This document shows, piece after piece, positions 2,575-38,375 of a stretch of 38,477 nucleotides of DNA; within the stretch, counting starts at the first letter, position 1, and each line of letters opens with the position of its first letter. The notes under the pieces are model-generated. The model worked only from the letters and a program-made list of their open reading frames with translations, made no database searches and was not told the DNA's origin. Source of the DNA: a virus; IMG/VR virus record IMGVR_UViG_3300020438_000003, positions 1 through 38,477 of that record. One strand, written 5' to 3'. Made by a program: the position numbers and the translations under genes.

Positions 2575-2985
2575 CTCTGCTTGTTTCAATTCTCCGATCC
2601 TCGGCTCCTCTCAGGTCCCTTCTACTCACCTCGATTCAACTCCATCGCTTGCCAGTTCAACGATTAAGAACTGGTTTCATGTTCGTCAGCCCTACGTGGT
2701 AAAGACGGGCAAAATAAAAACGCCCTTCTTGTCGCCTCAACTCTCCGCGTCACTACTCGGCTATCCGCGTCTTATCGCAATTCTCCGCATTTCCCCTCCA
2801 TCGTTCACACTTCACGAATAAAAGTGTTTCAACTCACTTAAGCCCTACGTGGTGACGAGTGAGAAACCGCCCGCCTCGTCTACGCTCCATTCGCCTTGAC
2901 TCTCCTCTTCGCGCTGCGCGGCATGACAACTCGATTCGCCTCATCTCAAATCCATCGCTCCCGATCCACGATTAAGATCGGATTT
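2575..2985 (+). repeat. Tandem 154-bp-period array of conserved-loop hairpins (possible structured RNA)
   Basis: This 406-bp gap between convergent genes has no credible protein gene. It holds 2.5 units of a diverged repeat. Hairpin A occurs three times with loop (C/A)ACGAWTAA starting at 2659, 2813 and 2967, exactly 154 bp apart, closed by different but fully paired stems: CCAGTTC/GAACTGG, ACACTT/AAGTGT and CCGATC/GATCGG. Each is preceded by CCATCG (2642, 2798, 2952). Hairpin B occurs twice (loops at 2688 and 2841) with AGCCCTACGTGGT and changing stems: GTTCGTC/GACGGGC (with two G.U pairs only on the plus strand) and CTCACT/AGTGAG. The rest is pyrimidine-rich on the plus strand, with repeated TCTCCGC-like words. 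Loop A (ACG) can pair with loop B (CGT). The third hairpin A overlaps the integrase stop codon. Confidence 0.75.
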
Positions 2986-4189
2986 TATTTCTTGCTTTTT
3001 TAAAAGTTGATTCAGTTGTTGATGTCGTTGCAAATGGATATTCTCTAAGGTGGCATTCCAGCGAGTGCCCCATTGAATTAGACATTGCACCGCTATCAAT
3101 TCCGTATTTGCTATGTCCTCTTACGCTGTAAGAATGTCTAAACGAATATGTGCCCAATTGTTCATTTCTTGATTCAACCTTTGCTTTTAAAGAGGACCAA
3201 CACGAACGACGCTCTAAATATTTTCTAATTGCTTCCGCTACGCCGTTACCTTTAGCAGTTAAAGAAGGTAATTCAAGTAAACCAGATTTGTATAAGGGTA
3301 ATAAATTCCATTGGGTATTTTCTATTGGTAAAGGTTCCAATCTTCTAGGTTTTGTAATTCCTCCCCCTGAACGTTTTTCGTATGAACACCAAAGATATTC
3401 TTCATTAGTTTTATTATCTGTTCTTACGTGAAGGTATTTAATCTCAACAGGTCGAAGGCCATATTCAGCAATTAGTTTTAGAACGTTGGCCCATTTAAAC
3501 CCGGCGGCGGTTGCTTGTATTTGTTCAATTAGATTTAGTATTTCTTGATCCGTTATTGGGTCTTTTTTTTGTATTTTTGATTTAGCTGCTTTTCTTCCTA
3601 TATGTATTTTTCTATTTGTAGGAGGTAGCCAAGAGGTGGGGGCGTTTTCTCTAGTAACGCAATATTCAAGGAATTGGCAGAGGTTATTTGTACGGCGTTT
3701 TCTTGTTGGTGTTCCGGGGGGCCATTTGCGTATTACTAAATCAATTAAATCAGCGGGGTTTGTGGGTGGTTCTTTACTCTCTAATAAATGAACAGCATCA
3801 GATAAAACGTTTTTGTAATCGTGGTTAAATGTTTTTTGAGTTATAGCGTTTTCATGCTCTGTTTTATATTTCTCAAAGTTCTTTAAACAGGCTGCCCAAT
3901 CCCGTTCAATTTTGGGGGCACGACCTGACGCTATTTTTGACGCCGTTTTTAAATCATGGCCCTCAAGGGTGAGGTTATAAATCTTTCTAATTCTTATTTC
4001 TGCATCTTTGCTTGATCCACGTTCCCATAAGAAATCTAATTTTACTGATTGAGGTTTTAACCCTTTAGGTCTAAAAAATAAAAGTACTTTTCCTCTATGG
4101 TCTACAACTGACCAACCTTGCCCAAGTTCTTTAATACCGCGTTGAAAGTATTCGGCCCAATCCCCAGATTTTCGCTTAAGTTTTGGCAA
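2972..4189 (-). CDS. int: Tyrosine-type site-specific integrase
   Basis: 405 aa tyrosine recombinase that should join attP to the host tRNA-Pro gene. Catalytic residues visible: Arg246 (YGLRPVEIK), box II around YSFRHSYSVR with Arg351, His375 in MGHS and the nucleophile Tyr384 (LREYPFA), nine residues after His375. The first box II histidine is replaced by Tyr348. Residues 1-60 look like an arm-binding domain and 90-190 a core-binding SAM-like domain. No ATG is available near the front; the start is TTG at 4189, immediately beside arm-type repeats at 4191 and 4202, so binding of the protein may repress its own synthesis. The C-terminal codons and stop lie in a hairpin of the 2575 array. Confidence 0.92.
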   Translation of the reverse strand: MPKLKRKSGDWAEYFQRGIKELGQGWSVVDHRGKVLLFFRPKGLKPQSVKLDFLWERGSSKDAEIRIRKIYNLTLEGHDLKTASKIASGRAPKIERDWAACLKNFEKYKTEHENAITQKTFNHDYKNVLSDAVHLLESKEPPTNPADLIDLVIRKWPPGTPTRKRRTNNLCQFLEYCVTRENAPTSWLPPTNRKIHIGRKAAKSKIQKKDPITDQEILNLIEQIQATAAGFKWANVLKLIAEYGLRPVEIKYLHVRTDNKTNEEYLWCSYEKRSGGGITKPRRLEPLPIENTQWNLLPLYKSGLLELPSLTAKGNGVAEAIRKYLERRSCWSSLKAKVESRNEQLGTYSFRHSYSVRGHSKYGIDSGAMSNSMGHSLECHLREYPFATTSTTESTFKKARNKIRS

Positions 4190-4190
4190 T

Positions 4191-4210
4191 GTAATCTAGC
4201 TGTAATCTAG
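4191..4210 (+). repeat. Arm-type integrase sites, int side
   Basis: Two direct copies of GTAATCTAG at 4191-4199 and 4202-4210, spaced 11 bp start to start. The same pair with the same spacing lies on the other side of the tRNA fragment at 4378. This is the arrangement expected of P-arm sites bound by the integrase N-terminal domain. Confidence 0.8.
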
Positions 4211-4303
4211 TGTAAGTATTGCCCACTATTAAACGATAGTCAATAGAGATATATGGGCTAGTTATAGCTTAAAAAAGCAGTTACAGCAGGGGCTAGGGTG
4301 TTC

Positions 4304-4347
4304 GCTTTGGGAGCACTAGGTCGCAGGTTCGAATCCTGTCGCCCCGA
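4304..4347 (+). other. attP: attP core: 3' half of a tRNA-Pro(TGG) gene
   Basis: From the anticodon loop TTTGGGA (anticodon TGG) through the T-arm (GCAGGTTCGAATCCTG) to GCCCCGA, this is the 3' half of a proline tRNA. The 5' half is absent: the bases upstream do not pair with the acceptor strand. This is the usual form of a phage attP that restores the tRNA on integration. By orientation, the restored host tRNA will be followed by the 4348 side (sigma gene) and the integrase will lie at the far end of the prophage. Confidence 0.88.
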
Positions 4348-4377
4348 TTGGGTTTTCAGGGAATGGGTTTTTCGCTT

Positions 4378-4397
4378 GTAATCTAGGCGTAATCTAG
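4378..4397 (+). repeat. Arm-type integrase sites, sigma side
   Basis: Two direct copies of GTAATCTAG at 4378-4386 and 4389-4397, with the same 11-bp spacing and orientation as the pair at 4191. They flank the tRNA core at about 30 bp, against about 94 bp for the other pair. Confidence 0.8.
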
Positions 4398-4407
4398 GCG
4401 TTAAGGT

Positions 4408-5313
4408 TTAACTAGGGTTTCGCCTGATTGGGTACAATTTTTTTCTCATTCGCTTCAAACATTTAGCCTCGATTTGCCGCACTCTTTCCCTTGAAACGTC
4501 CATTAATTCCCCGATTGCTTGATAAGTCAAAGGGCCGAGGCCATCAGGATCAATGCCATATCGCAATTCAAGACACCAACGTTCTCGCTCTGGCAACTCA
4601 GCCAATAGAGATTCAAGGTGTTCTAAACCTTGCTCAATTTCTAATTTTTCCTCTTGTATTAATTGCCCGTTATCTGTGACTAATTCAAGAATTGATGAAT
4701 CATCGAACAACTTGTCATTGCTACAAGCCATTTGATCAAGTGATGTAATTTTTGGGGTGTGTTCCAAATATGCCCTCATCGTTACTTGTCTTATCTTGCA
4801 AAATTCCGCGCATTCTTCAATGGTTGGGGTTCGGTGATTTTTTTCTTTAAATTCATCAGCAAAAACAGAAACTTTCTTTTGTACTGCAATTGCATTTAAT
4901 GGGAGGCGAATCGTTCGATCAGAAATACAAATTGATCTAGCTACCGCTTGCCGAATCCACCAATAACCATAAGTACTAAATTTATAACCTCTTGTCGGGT
5001 CAAATTTTTCTATTGCGCGAGATAGCCCCAAATTACCTTCTTGTATTAAATCCAATAGGGTCATACTTCCTAACGCCGCTTCCGCGTACTTTTTAGAGAT
5101 ATGAACCACAAGGCGCAAATTAGCGGCAAACATTCGATCTTTTGCTTTTATACCGCGCCTGATTGTTTTCTTTTGTTCTGGGGTTGGGTGTTCTAAATCT
5201 TTCAATTCCATGTAGGCCTTAACTTCATTGCCAAGACCTATTTCTTCGGAGGGTGTAAGCATTGGCACCCGGCCCGCTTGCCTTAAGTACCAATTGATTC
5301 CATCATCAGACAC
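4408..5313 (-). CDS. Cyanobacterial-type group 2 sigma-70 factor
   Basis: 301 aa, complete RpoD-like sigma without the long non-conserved region. Region 1.2 is near the start (YLRQAGRVPMLTPSEEI). Region 2 is at about 60-130: NLRLVVHISKKY, DLIQEGNLGL, the -10-recognition part KFSTYGYWWIRQAV and AICxSDRTIRLP-like sequence. Region 3 follows, and region 4 at about 245-295 has the HTH SRERVRQIEAKCLKRMR that reads -35 elements. It closely resembles cyanobacterial group 2 sigmas. It begins with GTG at 5313 directly after the SSB stop, so it is made with the recombination genes. It probably redirects host polymerase to phage promoters; the CGCCATARTAAA word is a candidate target. It lies next to attP and so at a prophage end. 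Confidence 0.9.
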   Translation of the reverse strand: MSDDGINWYLRQAGRVPMLTPSEEIGLGNEVKAYMELKDLEHPTPEQKKTIRRGIKAKDRMFAANLRLVVHISKKYAEAALGSMTLLDLIQEGNLGLSRAIEKFDPTRGYKFSTYGYWWIRQAVARSICISDRTIRLPLNAIAVQKKVSVFADEFKEKNHRTPTIEECAEFCKIRQVTMRAYLEHTPKITSLDQMACSNDKLFDDSSILELVTDNGQLIQEEKLEIEQGLEHLESLLAELPERERWCLELRYGIDPDGLGPLTYQAIGELMDVSRERVRQIEAKCLKRMRKKLYPIRRNPS

Positions 5314-5646: not shown

Positions 5647-5890
5647 TGTTTTGTAATTCGGGGTGAGTAGCGATTAATTTGTTGATCCCTCGATTAAGAG
5701 AAAGATCATGTTTTTTGCACCAATCATTTAATGAGTGCCAATTGATTTCTGTTAGTTTTGAAGAAACCTGCCAACGTGATTTATAACTTTCTTTGTCTGC
5801 CGTCCAAGCCCAATTACTTTTTCCATAAGGTCGAGCGCGTCGGGTTATTTTTTGCGCTCTTTGATTGTCGTTAAATTCTGCTTCCATCAT
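5639..5890 (-). CDS. Hypothetical protein in the recombination operon
   Basis: 83 aa, basic, with many tryptophans (SNWAWTAD, RWQVSSKL, NWHSLNDWCKKHDLS). I do not recognise it. The C-terminal part (SLNDWCKKHDLSLNRGINKLI) could be a short helical DNA-binding segment. ATGA overlap with the Rad52-like gene upstream and an 8-nt overlap with ssb downstream put it inside a tightly coupled recombination operon, so a role as annealing or SSB accessory protein is reasonable but unproven. Two Met codons open the frame (5890 and 5887). Confidence 0.6.
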   Translation of the reverse strand: MMEAEFNDNQRAQKITRRARPYGKSNWAWTADKESYKSRWQVSSKLTEINWHSLNDWCKKHDLSLNRGINKLIATHPELQNNV

Positions 5891-6540
5891 GTAAGGCGAT
5901 TTGTAAAACCGTCGATAAATTCAATATGTTTGGGCTCTTGTACGTGATTTGAGAAACTACCTTCAAAGTCTGGAAATTTAAGCTTGTAAGCTTGCTTTAA
6001 TCCGGGTAAAAGTGTTGGGTGTTTTTTAGCCCAACCGACAAGATCAGATAAATAAGTTTTTATGTGTTCAGGAGTTACAGGAGGAAATTGAATTGGTTCT
6101 TTTTCTGATTGCTGCGTAGGAATATTACCAGAATGTTTTAAAAGAGCCGTAGAAGATTGCCCTTGTTCGCCGTCGTAAAGACTGAGGCCAAACTGATCAC
6201 CGAATGAACTTAAGGCTCTTTTTCTTGCGTCACTTTCTGCGCTCTTTGCGGTGTTCTCATGGTCAAAGCCAGCATGACCGCCAACGCCATCACGAACAAC
6301 GCCGCCCGCTGTGACTCTTACTCTTGCGATGTAGGCAATGCCTTTTTGTGCCTTTACTTCTCTTAGCTCTATTGTTTCACTTGACCAACCATCAGGACCG
6401 AAAATTCTATTGGCGTTGGACATTAAAACCCAACTTTCTAAATAGGCCAAATCCCTGTTTCCTTGCCCCTTTCTAGTTTTTACAAACTTAGGGTTGATGG
6501 GTTGAGACAGTAAGTTTTTTTGATCGTCGTTAAAACTCAT
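5887..6540 (-). CDS. Rad52-family single-strand annealing protein
   Basis: 217 aa. Residues about 25-130 carry the Rad52/22 pattern: AYLESWVLMSNANRIFGPDGWSSE, a strand pair with YIARVRVTAGG, and the signature AESDARKRALSSFGDQFGLSLYD. The second half (130-217) is a variable tail, probably for SSB contact. It should anneal complementary strands during phage recombination and repair. The operon context (SSB downstream, PD-(D/E)XK nuclease in the opposite early operon) matches a phage recombination module. The first 11 codons overlap the end of the 70-aa gene. Confidence 0.88.
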   Translation of the reverse strand: MSFNDDQKNLLSQPINPKFVKTRKGQGNRDLAYLESWVLMSNANRIFGPDGWSSETIELREVKAQKGIAYIARVRVTAGGVVRDGVGGHAGFDHENTAKSAESDARKRALSSFGDQFGLSLYDGEQGQSSTALLKHSGNIPTQQSEKEPIQFPPVTPEHIKTYLSDLVGWAKKHPTLLPGLKQAYKLKFPDFEGSFSNHVQEPKHIEFIDGFTNRLT

Positions 6541-6930: not shown

Positions 6931-7692
6931 TTAAACAAAAGATAATAATTTTGCGTGCATGTCTTCAATTTTCTTTGACAGAGGATCTTCTGAAACTTCA
7001 CGCAAACCAACGCAAGCCGGACAGCCTTTATATTTAAGTAAAATAAATTTTGCCTCTTCTAGAGTTGGTACACGCTCACCCCTCAGAATATCCTGAGCCA
7101 TAGAGGTAACATGTTTTTCTTTAACTGCTTTCATTGGGGCAGTTTTAGTGAGAGAATCCCAGCATTCCTTATTAGACATCATATTATTTTTTGCAACCTG
7201 CTTAAATGTTTTTTCTAATTCCTCGACGTAATCAGTTAAAAATTCTTTAGTCAACTTTTCTTGTTTTGTATATATAGGGTTAATTTTTTGCCTAGCTCCA
7301 AACATTGCTTGAAGATCTTGCGCCGTCGCGGGTTTACCGTCAATATTTAAAAACGGTTTAGCTTCCTTCATCTTGTCTAGTACTGTTCTTGAAAATCCCG
7401 CCCCTCTAGTAGAAGTATTGCTTTGAGTTGGTGGAAATTGATTGTTAGCTATGCAATGAATAACTGTTTCTATGCCATACCAAAACTCATTCTTTGGATC
7501 AAGGCGCGCTAATTCAAAATATGCCAATTGACTATTAAAAATGTTTATTCCTTCCGCCTTAGAAAAATCGTGAATATTTTGCTGTGAAAGATTATTCATC
7601 TCGCGCCAACGCTTAAACGCTTTACCTAAAGTTGCGCGGGCTTCTAATCTAGCTGCTTGTTCTTTTACTCTTTTGGCTTGTCGGTCTGCCAT
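6931..7692 (-). CDS. XRE-type helix-turn-helix protein, likely prophage repressor
   Basis: 253 aa. Residues about 22-65 (LGKAFKRWREMNNLSQQNIHDF ahead of NSQLAYFELAR) form an XRE/Cro-like HTH. The remaining 190 residues are helical, with a CPAC motif near the end (KYKGCPACVGLREV). No LexA-type Ser/Lys autoprotease motif is visible, so induction may not be by RecA-driven self-cleavage. It is transcribed away from the early operon at 7889 across a 196-bp control region with two perfect 14-bp operator-like words, the CI/Cro arrangement. A further site covers the leftward promoter just downstream. Function as the lysogeny repressor is inferred from position and HTH. Confidence 0.75.
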   Translation of the reverse strand: MADRQAKRVKEQAARLEARATLGKAFKRWREMNNLSQQNIHDFSKAEGINIFNSQLAYFELARLDPKNEFWYGIETVIHCIANNQFPPTQSNTSTRGAGFSRTVLDKMKEAKPFLNIDGKPATAQDLQAMFGARQKINPIYTKQEKLTKEFLTDYVEELEKTFKQVAKNNMMSNKECWDSLTKTAPMKAVKEKHVTSMAQDILRGERVPTLEEAKFILLKYKGCPACVGLREVSEDPLSKKIEDMHAKLLSFV

Positions 7693-35988: not shown

Positions 35989-37866
35989 TTACCAATGTGT
36001 GACATACGACTTCTTAGTAACCTTACTATTAGATTTTAGACGTTGTTTTTTAGACGAATTAACGGAATCTAAGAGCTTATTAGCGAAGATTTGAAAGAAT
36101 TTACCGCGTGGGAAGCGTTGATAAAGATGATTAAGGGCTGCATAGGCATAAACGGCACAATCTAATGCCTCAACATTTTGATTCTTTTTCTGAACGTATT
36201 GGGTACCCCTCCCGCTTTTCTTTAAAACCTTTCTTTCTCCTGTGAATTGTTTAAAATATTCTTCCGTTGTTTGCGCGTGAAAATGTAATTTATTATTGAA
36301 CTTAAGCCTACTATACAACACATCTTTAATAGTGTCAGAACCAACCATATAAACAACAACACCGCCTTTAATTGGTTTACCTCTATAGTTCAAATCAACT
36401 TTTGAACCGCGCCCGATTGCTGGTTGTCCTGATTGACTACTTCCTTTAATTCCTATAACGCCCGAACCTTTTCTAGCCCTGCAATAATTGTAAACCGAGT
36501 TCGTTGCCAATCCGCCGGTATCTATCGCCGTACATTCAACTTTTAATTTACCGCCGTTTGGGTGTTCCCATTCAGCCGTTAACAAAACATCTAACCCCTC
36601 CCAGACGGTGCTTTGATTCGCGTCGCCAAGAATTACATCATGCTGGATTAAATACATATGCTCTTCTAAACCTATCCCCCACGTCGAGATTTCGATTCTC
36701 TCCATTTTCGTACCTCCGCCACCTTGCACATCTACCCCCTGAACTAAACAAACAACATCTTCAGGAATAGTGCCGGGTAAATATTTTTCACACTTCTCCA
36801 ACATCTCTTCCGCTGATAATTGCGATTGATAAGACTCGTCAAAGGTTTCAGCTAATCGGGTATTAACAAAGGTCTTAAATAAAGGCGCGTCATCTTTTGA
36901 CCTTAGAAATTCTTCGACTAATTCAGGCCAAGTCATCCAACCCGCGGGACTATAAATTGAACTCATTTGAAACCCTGCCGTCTTCCTTGTCATTGGTTTC
37001 TCTGCCCTCCACTCACCTTGTCTAAGCATGGAAGTCTTATGTGATTCGTCGAATCTTTCCCCGCAATGTGAACATTCATATTTAGCCGTTGAAGCGTCGC
37101 GGTTTTCCCATTTCATTTGCGACCAAACAAGGGTTTGATATTTTCCACAACAAGGAGATTTAACAAAGAACTTGCGGCGGTCACTTGCTAGGTACTCTGA
37201 TTCAACGCGGCTGAACTCTTTTAAAGTCGGCGTACTCGTCATTAATATCTTTTTCCTGCTGAAAGTTGAAGTTCTTTTAATTGCAAGTTCTACGGGGTCG
37301 CCTTCACTTACCCCGCCGGAAGTACTTGCATCACTAGGGTATGAGTCAATTTCATCAAGAAACAAATAGCGCACTGGAGCGCTGCGAAGCCCGGCGGGGG
37401 AGTTACTACCTGTGAGGAGCAATATGCCATTTGGGAACTCTTTTATAAACATTGAGTTACTTGCATCCCTTGATCTTTGCGGGGCAATCTTCGCTTTTAT
37501 AACGGGCGTTTCTTCAAAAGCAGGCTCTAACCTTTGACGGCTCATCCTCTTGACCATATCCAACGAGGCAGCAACACAAAGGATGGGGGCCGGGCAATGA
37601 TCGATTGTATAAAGCAGGAAGTTGATGCCCATTTCTGTCTTACCTAATTGAGCGCCAAACATTACAACGACTCTTTCAACATCCGTATTTGTCACGCTTA
37701 AGCAATCCATCGGCTCTTTTAAATAGGGAACTCTTGACGTCCGCCAAGGCCCCGGCTCGCTTGAGCCTTTACTAGAAAGTCGTCTGTGGGAATTGCTCCA
37801 TTCGCTAACCGTCATCGGTTTGGGTGGAATGATGCCCTCTATAAATCCTTTCTGAAATGGGTTCAT
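35989..37866 (-). CDS. Terminase large subunit, lambda gpA-like
   Basis: 625 aa from the ATG at 37866, which overlaps the TerS stop (ATGA); the frame is open to 37893. ATPase: deviant Walker A GAQLGKT (about 71-77) and Walker B LFLDEID (about 168-174). Two CxxC pairs (SPCCGKYQ, YECSHCGE) form a zinc-binding insertion typical of the GpA family. The nuclease part has Asp in VQGVDVQGGG and IDTGG. A gpA-type enzyme implies cos packaging, so a cos site is expected near TerS. Confidence 0.93.
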   Translation of the reverse strand: MNPFQKGFIEGIIPPKPMTVSEWSNSHRRLSSKGSSEPGPWRTSRVPYLKEPMDCLSVTNTDVERVVVMFGAQLGKTEMGINFLLYTIDHCPAPILCVAASLDMVKRMSRQRLEPAFEETPVIKAKIAPQRSRDASNSMFIKEFPNGILLLTGSNSPAGLRSAPVRYLFLDEIDSYPSDASTSGGVSEGDPVELAIKRTSTFSRKKILMTSTPTLKEFSRVESEYLASDRRKFFVKSPCCGKYQTLVWSQMKWENRDASTAKYECSHCGERFDESHKTSMLRQGEWRAEKPMTRKTAGFQMSSIYSPAGWMTWPELVEEFLRSKDDAPLFKTFVNTRLAETFDESYQSQLSAEEMLEKCEKYLPGTIPEDVVCLVQGVDVQGGGGTKMERIEISTWGIGLEEHMYLIQHDVILGDANQSTVWEGLDVLLTAEWEHPNGGKLKVECTAIDTGGLATNSVYNYCRARKGSGVIGIKGSSQSGQPAIGRGSKVDLNYRGKPIKGGVVVYMVGSDTIKDVLYSRLKFNNKLHFHAQTTEEYFKQFTGERKVLKKSGRGTQYVQKKNQNVEALDCAVYAYAALNHLYQRFPRGKFFQIFANKLLDSVNSSKKQRLKSNSKVTKKSYVTHW

Positions 37867-38375
37867 GCTGCCTCTACAAATCTTTCTAAACAACTATGAA
37901 TTTCTTGACGCATTACAGAGTCAATAGCTGTAGGGTCCGTTTCACTAGCAAATAAATTACTAACACGATCAGGTAACGTCAAAAACGCCTCACGAATACC
38001 AACCGCCAACTCAAAACTTTTCTTCTCTACTTCCTTTGCACTAATTAATTCTTTCTTTTGCTGCAATACCTGTATCCTTGCCAGCTCCGCTTTATAAAAT
38101 TCGTTTTTCGCACGTGAAACATTGAAATCCGGTATTTGATCCGCTGGCATTTCCTGAACTTGTTTCTTTAGTTCCTTTTTTGTTTGAGCTGGTATTTGAT
38201 TTAAAACAGGCGCCGTATTCTTATCCCATAACTCCATAGCCAGTTCCTTGTTAAGTAGCGTTTTGCCGTTGTGCTTAACAATTGCGCCATCTAAAACCCC
38301 TGTGCTCTTTCTTTGGCTAACCGCACTTCTAGACACGTTTTTGAGCTGCGCCAGATCTGCAAAAGTTATGAGCAT
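37863..38375 (-). CDS. Terminase small subunit, Nu1-like
   Basis: 170 aa. N-terminal HTH (TFADLAQLKNVSRSAVSQRK), a linker, then the conserved central helices NEFYKAELARIQVLQQKKE with LISAKEVEKKSF and a C-terminal TerL-binding helix (EIHSCLERFVEAA). It binds the packaging site and recruits TerL; the HTH should read cos-proximal DNA upstream (38376 onward). First gene of the structural cluster. Confidence 0.85.
   Translation of the reverse strand: MLITFADLAQLKNVSRSAVSQRKSTGVLDGAIVKHNGKTLLNKELAMELWDKNTAPVLNQIPAQTKKELKKQVQEMPADQIPDFNVSRAKNEFYKAELARIQVLQQKKELISAKEVEKKSFELAVGIREAFLTLPDRVSNLFASETDPTAIDSVMRQEIHSCLERFVEAA

Follow-up and report, generated by a model that had tools for sequence, protein, structure and literature searches.

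How far marine picocyanobacteria undergo lysogeny has long been puzzling, and the locus described here raises the question of whether a tRNA fragment set between repeated motifs, next to an integrase gene, is a true phage attachment site, and of what such a site says about the life style of its carrier. The locus lies in a viral genome record whose whole stretch of DNA, 38,477 bp in length, is called the window below. A first-pass annotation of the window had proposed a complete attP with symmetric arm sites in a temperate marine cyanophage. The features concerned are collected in Table 1.

Table 1. Features of the window that bear on integration and on phage identity
Feature	Position	Strand	Evidence or remark
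Putative excisionase (recombination directionality factor), 69 aa	1105..1314	-	Pfam DUF1233, E 8.9e-6
Tyrosine integrase of lambda type (405 aa); TTG start codon adjoins left arm pair	2972..4189	-	PHROG 216
P-arm pair, GTAATCTAG-CT-GTAATCTAG	4191..4210	+	predicted integrase arm-type sites; kept in six relatives; replaced in concert with integrase N-terminus in L004
attP core, identical to the 3' part of the host tRNA-Pro(TGG), anticodon stem to 3' end	4304..4347	+	
Predicted crossover region, GCTTTGGGAGC, 11-bp anticodon stem-loop	4304..4314	+	sole tRNA stretch common with the attPs of L006/L189 and L007/L190
P'-arm pair, GTAATCTAG-GC-GTAATCTAG	4378..4397	+	predicted arm-type sites
Sigma factor, cyanobacterial RpoD type, first gene past the P' arm	4408..5313	-	TIGR02997 Sig70-cyanoRpoD, E 2.3e-77, below family cut-off
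Rad52-family annealing protein, recombination block	5887..6540	-	Pfam PF04098, E 6.5e-27
Candidate lysogeny repressor, N-terminal HTH-like fold, divergent early junction	6931..7692	-	model pLDDT 87.6
Terminase large subunit (GpA)	35989..37893	-	PF05876, PF20454; S-CBS1 42%

Arm pairs and tRNA core of the attachment site

Exact copies of GTAATCTAG start at positions 4191, 4202, 4378 and 4389, and no other copy occurs on either strand of the record. All four are direct and form two pairs, with a spacing of 11 bp within each pair, around the 3' half of tRNA-Pro(TGG), just as the annotation had described. Relative to position 4304, the copies start at -113 and -102 on the left and at +74 and +85 on the right. 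The proposed symmetry of the arms therefore holds for motif content and spacing, but not for the distances to the core.

The 44-bp core (4304-4347, GCTTTGGGAGCACTAGGTCGCAGGTTCGAATCCTGTCGCCCCGA) has exact matches in at least 120 genome stretches from Prochlorococcus, Synechococcus, Cyanobium and other Cyanobiaceae. A cyanobacterial tRNA-Pro matching the core over its full length was sought and found, which bears out the prediction that tRNA-Pro(TGG) is the integration gene; the hosts can be taken to be Cyanobiaceae. Among phage records, the sole match to the core was a 4.3-kb faecal metagenome record at 90%. ARAGORN detected no complete tRNA in the window, no Rfam family was matched in it, and a search for a terminator or promoter close to the attP gave nothing beyond chance level. 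With an exact core, arm pairs that are kept in relatives (see below) and an adjoining tyrosine integrase, positions 4191-4397 can be regarded as a real and complete attP.

Identity of the phage

The structural block runs from the terminase gene down to ~16.1 kb and includes a lambda-type portal, a prohead protease-capsid fusion, a tape measure and a gpJ-like protein; by this gene content the virus is a tailed phage of the lambda-like kind. Among phage records, the Synechococcus phages S-CBS1 and S-CBS3 have the closest terminases (42%). These terminases, the exact core in Cyanobiaceae and the cyanobacterial-type sigma factor, which is kept at 49-53% in the mosaic relatives L183, L184 and L026, together place the virus among the cyanophages. 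The "cyanophage" part of the earlier label is thus supported, and the "marine" part we infer from the relatives and from the Prochlorococcus cores.

Three pyrimidine-rich repeats of ~155 bp lie at 2580-2990, between the convergent early genes and the end of the integrase gene. They match no Rfam family, and two of the three contain a CGATTAAG stem-loop-like unit followed by T.

Chromosomal traces and life style

Prophages or islands at the 3' end of tRNA-Pro(TGG) were looked for in 400 Cyanobiaceae genomes. Related integrases are present in 251 of the 400, and several of them adjoin displaced cores in the orientation expected of an attR. In this limited sample of 400 genomes, no prophage with a terminase of more than 44% identity was found, and none at the tRNA-Pro site. 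Two contigs from Cyanobiaceae genomes carry more distant terminases (34-37%): L187 (G135 contig 23), which also has an integrase and an Xis-like relative, and L188 (G350 contig 12), where there are relatives for portal and capsid. It is possible that these are prophages of other cyanophages.

Pairs of GTAATCTAG were found in one of the 400 genomes, G176 (1.5 Mb), which belongs to the same genus as Prochlorococcus sp. AG-436-M02 (G161); no further pairs were found in 14 genomes of that genus or in 37 more named genomes. On contig 20 of G176, a tRNA-Pro core is followed by a right arm with 90.5% identity to window positions 4304-4398, and then by ~1.4 kb with a 228-aa ORF and without an integrase. 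Further along comes GTAATCTAGGCGTAATCTAG, as far ahead of a second core as would be expected, and beyond that core another arm pair, GTGCCCTAG, is found. This 1.5-kb cassette (L179:12040-13580), with window-type arm pairs and two tRNA-Pro cores, lies within an array of tRNA-Pro remnants. It is either what a deletion has left of an element or a non-autonomous cassette whose arms are of the window's type.

The statement that the site is direct evidence of a temperate life style went too far. In PMC8776855, T7-like cyanophages with int and attP are described as integrating without stable lysogeny, and according to PMC8776855 and PMC6157547, integrase-bearing cyanophages are known and intact prophages are absent from marine picocyanobacterial isolates. 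Like those T7-like phages, the window phage might integrate at tRNA-Pro during infection without forming stable lysogens, so that a genuine att would accompany a lytic life style. We consider this somewhat unlikely. The integration without stable lysogeny and the lack of intact prophages just cited, and the modest identity (44%) of the nearest terminases in the 400 genomes speak for it, but the chromosome of the Prochlorococcus-genus genome retains a cassette with window-type arms, and the window encodes an excisionase candidate and an HTH-like protein, whereas the T7-like phages are reported in PMC8776855 to be without repressor homologues.

Both of these window proteins rest on weak matches. 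The putative excisionase exceeds the DUF1233 cut-off (25.7 bits against 22). The predicted model of the protein at 6931-7692 matches mostly XRE/lambda-repressor HTH domains, with a best Z of 6.8; this protein gave no Foldseek match below E 0.001 and belongs to no Pfam or NCBIfam family. Weak as the two matches are, the excisionase candidate and the conserved HTH-like protein at the divergent early junction favour a temperate cycle, and the phage has the temperate features of an integrase and a matching attB in its hosts. The capacity to integrate is well supported, and lysogeny is likely.

The integrase

The integrase ORF matches the PHROG 216 integrase with an E value of 1.1e-5. It has no Pfam match, a search of solved structures by sequence returned a single XerC-like chain and nothing else, and no relative was found among phage records by tblastn at E 1e-5. 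The residues R246, K272, R351, H375 and Y384 are invariant across the sequences of 22 relatives. The first His of the R-K-H-R-H/W-Y catalytic set is replaced by Tyr348 in all 22. The predicted model (pLDDT 85) aligns with full-length lambda Int (1z1g_A; Z 13.3, 312 aligned residues, rmsd 10.0) over residues 9-386 (VIA), and its N-terminal domain folds as a helix, three strands and a helix. A three-domain layout is predicted, in which an N-terminal arm-binding domain precedes the core-binding and catalytic domains.

Concerted change of the arms and the integrase N-terminus

Scans of viral contigs yielded ten loci with a related integrase and 19 loci with the exact core. In a collection-wide pattern scan, a GTAATCTAG pair occurred in only 7 of 2.9 million viral contigs. 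Arm pairs were expected to persist in close relatives that share the integrase, and they do: all four copies are found at the window's offsets in L002, L003, L005, L009 and L011, and L008 also has four copies, with the left pair 13 bp closer. The geometry is retained in all close relatives with a readable attP.

In a further relative, L004, the arms have changed together with the integrase N-terminus. The L004 integrase is 90% identical overall, with 22 of 40 identical residues (55%) in positions 1-40 and ~93% identity in the remainder, and its divergence is confined to about residues 1-45. All four of its arm copies read GTATCCTAG, that is, two substitutions repeated four times. At the DNA level, divergence is limited to ~-30 to +130 around the int start and to the P' pair, with the core and spacer nearly unchanged. 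This is the pattern that a joint exchange of the arm-binding domain and its sites would leave, and the concerted change appears to reveal the role of the arms as sites recognised by the integrase N-terminus.

The wider family agrees with this. All 35 integrases that have a called arm pair and are at least 36% identical carry it at -133 to -136, counted from the GGTTCGAATCC box (where the 3' core is absent, the offset was measured from the site used as anchor instead of this box). At ~28% identity (below ~30%), the geometry differs, with an arm pair at about -170 and often a 12-bp spacing. Across ~30 arm sequences, the arms covary with integrase residues 20-90. In Mantel tests on a set reduced to 29, arm similarity correlated with residues 20-45 (r 0.35) and with residues 45-90 (r 0.40), each with 0 of 2000 permutations, although these counts are optimistic rather than strict probabilities because the relatives are phylogenetically linked. 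The correlation with residues 20-90 persists given residues 90-405, and that of the catalytic part with the arms is absent once the N-terminus is given.

These observations bear on two other readings of the repeats. The end of the left pair directly abuts the TTG start codon of int, so that binding there could control the gene, and the repeats might accordingly be operators repressing int or sites of the Xis-like protein instead of integrase arms. Such a role is improbable, since there is a matching pair on the other side of the core, at a distance of 187 bp, and the motif follows the integrase N-terminus in the way described. The idea of Xis sites was set aside in view of L004, whose arms have changed although its Xis-like protein is still 91% identical. 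More improbable still is a relic attP, that is, a decayed and functionless module: the integrase frame of L008 is broken by a stop after 170 aa, but the window has an open frame with invariant catalytic residues, the arms of L004 have changed in concert, and no other part of these mosaic genomes is conserved as well as the integration module (integrase 89-93%; Xis-like protein 84-91% in L182, L005 and L004), against 30-55% for most structural proteins common to the window and L181/L182, L005 or L004.

Opposite tRNA halves and the crossover region

The integrases of L006 and L007 are 65-69% identical to that of the window, and their attPs carry the 5' half of tRNA-Pro, GGGGCGTGGCGCAG...TGCTTTGGGAGC. 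In a pattern scan, the 5'-half sequence was found in four viral contigs, two of which hold complete tRNAs. Measured from GCTTTGGGAGC, the arms of the window start at -113, -102, +74 and +85, and those of L006 and L007 at -123, -112, +74 and +85; the P' arms are thus equally far away, and the P arms are shifted by one helical turn. As GCTTTGGGAGC is the only tRNA stretch that the 3'-half and 5'-half attPs have in common, and as it is anchored by matching arm distances, strand exchange should fall within these 11 bp, and the overlap is predicted to be the anticodon loop TTTGGGA (4306-4312).

On chromosomes, a complete tRNA-Pro with a related integrase immediately upstream, reading away from it, is found at L168:2668 and at L100:329 (minus strand). 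This arrangement is as would be expected after 5'-half integration. No switch of tRNA half inside one integrase lineage was found in the literature consulted. The viral contigs L012 and L017 also contain a complete tRNA-Pro; on an early reading, they would be prophage ends.

Proposed mechanism

Based on the results presented above, positions 4191-4397 are very probably the attP of a lambda-type integration module, whose integrase would hold the arm pairs with its N-domain and carry out exchange in the anticodon loop of tRNA-Pro(TGG), with the arms serving as an element-specific address. In this scheme, the N-terminal domain (~residues 1-75) would hold both GTAATCTAG pairs, and the catalytic domains would recombine TTTGGGA with the identical loop of the host gene. 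The 3' half brought by the phage would restore a full tRNA at attL, next to the P' arm, and the displaced host 3' half would mark attR beside the integrase. Excision would depend on the 69-aa Xis-like protein, and maintenance on the HTH protein at 6931-7692. Many elements could share one tRNA-Pro core in this way, each integrase acting solely on its own arms.

Paired arms at other tRNA-Pro cores

A sample of 194 tRNA-Pro core occurrences was taken from Cyanobiaceae chromosomes and phages. Of the 194, 82 have an exact 9-bp pair with a spacing of 11 bp on the downstream side and 77 on the upstream side. No such pair was found in shuffled controls (one shuffle per segment), and when 5000 random positions outside the cores were taken from these loci, the rates were 0.3% and 0.5%. 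Paired arms are therefore not a chance feature, being present on a given side at ~40% of the cores against 0.3-0.5% of random positions. Downstream offsets cluster near 52, 74 and 96, which are about two helical turns apart, and upstream offsets near -133, -144 and -170. The 30 arm sequences observed are chiefly of the form NNNNNCAAA or NNNNNCTAG. In phage contigs (e.g. L019, L023 and L024), the same motif stands on both sides of a core; in chromosomal islands, the two sides are often unlike, as expected where neighbouring elements abut. The paired-arm attP design is thus general among the tRNA-Pro elements of Cyanobiaceae, phages and islands alike.

Several tRNA-Pro 3' cores are found within 8 kb in Prochlorococcus genomes (L034, L035, L038, L061, L072, L095, L135 and others). 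Each core has separate arm pairs, which amounts to tandem accretion at one tRNA.

A broader interpretation can be offered tentatively. The tRNA-Pro gene could be a docking hub shared by picocyanobacterial elements, with an arm code built of modules (five variable bases at the head, then CWAA/CTAG, in fixed helical phase) that would insulate dozens of phages and islands from one another. Phages would switch address through the first 45 integrase residues and all four arms, could switch tRNA half, and may act in trans on cassettes that have matching arms but no integrase, mobilising for instance the 1.5-kb cassette of the Prochlorococcus-genus genome.

For the puzzle of lysogeny, the locus narrows the target to 11 bp of a single tRNA gene and supplies exact junction sequences to seek in single-cell genomes and reads, as well as an integrase family with arm sites whose specificity is testable. 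It brings the phages and chromosomal islands found at tRNA-Pro together under one recombination system. The natural exchange in L004 and the siblings with the opposite tRNA half allow arm recognition and the position of the crossover to be tested.

Comparison with known systems

The window resembles the lambda Int/attP system in its three-domain integrase (predicted here), in the arm sites flanking a short core and in a separate Xis-like protein. It differs from lambda in having one direct 11-bp-spaced pair per side, a tRNA anticodon-loop target and Tyr in place of the first catalytic His. In the cluster K mycobacteriophages CrimD, Anaya and Adephagia (PMC3203893), arm pairs also flank the core, and arm variants accompany substitutions in the integrase N-terminus. 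However, the P3/P4 pair of cluster K is inverted, whereas all copies in the window are direct; furthermore, the N-terminal change between L004 and the window covers ~45 residues, and the code spans ~30 arm sequences, from chromosomal islands as well as phages.

Integrases with proposed att sites, several of them at tRNA genes, are described for the cyanophages P-SS2 (PMC2784084) and S-LBS1 (PMC6157547) and the T7-like S-TIP37 and P-SSP7 (PMC8776855). According to the accessible text of these reports, their targets differ from that of the window, being tRNA-Met, the first (5') half of tRNA-Leu in T7-like cyanophages and 14-bp motifs in S-LBS1, and arm sites are not mentioned in that text. A novel picocyanobacterial integrase family acts at tRNA-Phe/Cys (PMC10187409). 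Compared by description, Prochlorococcus tycheposons and picocyanobacterial tRNA islands likewise have tyrosine recombinases beside displaced tRNA 3' ends; a tycheposon is, however, a cargo element without virion genes of its own, and the window has genes for terminase, portal, capsid and tail proteins.

The use of a tRNA 5' half as att site, as in L006 and L007, is known from archaeal pTN3-like integrases (PMC8371274), and in the tRNA-dependent lysogeny of actinobacteriophages (PMC10865867), related phages at one attB differ in the length of tRNA carried by attP. Unlike in those systems, the phages described here have integrases that are 65-69% identical and yet carry one or the other half of a single tRNA, with conserved arm distances.
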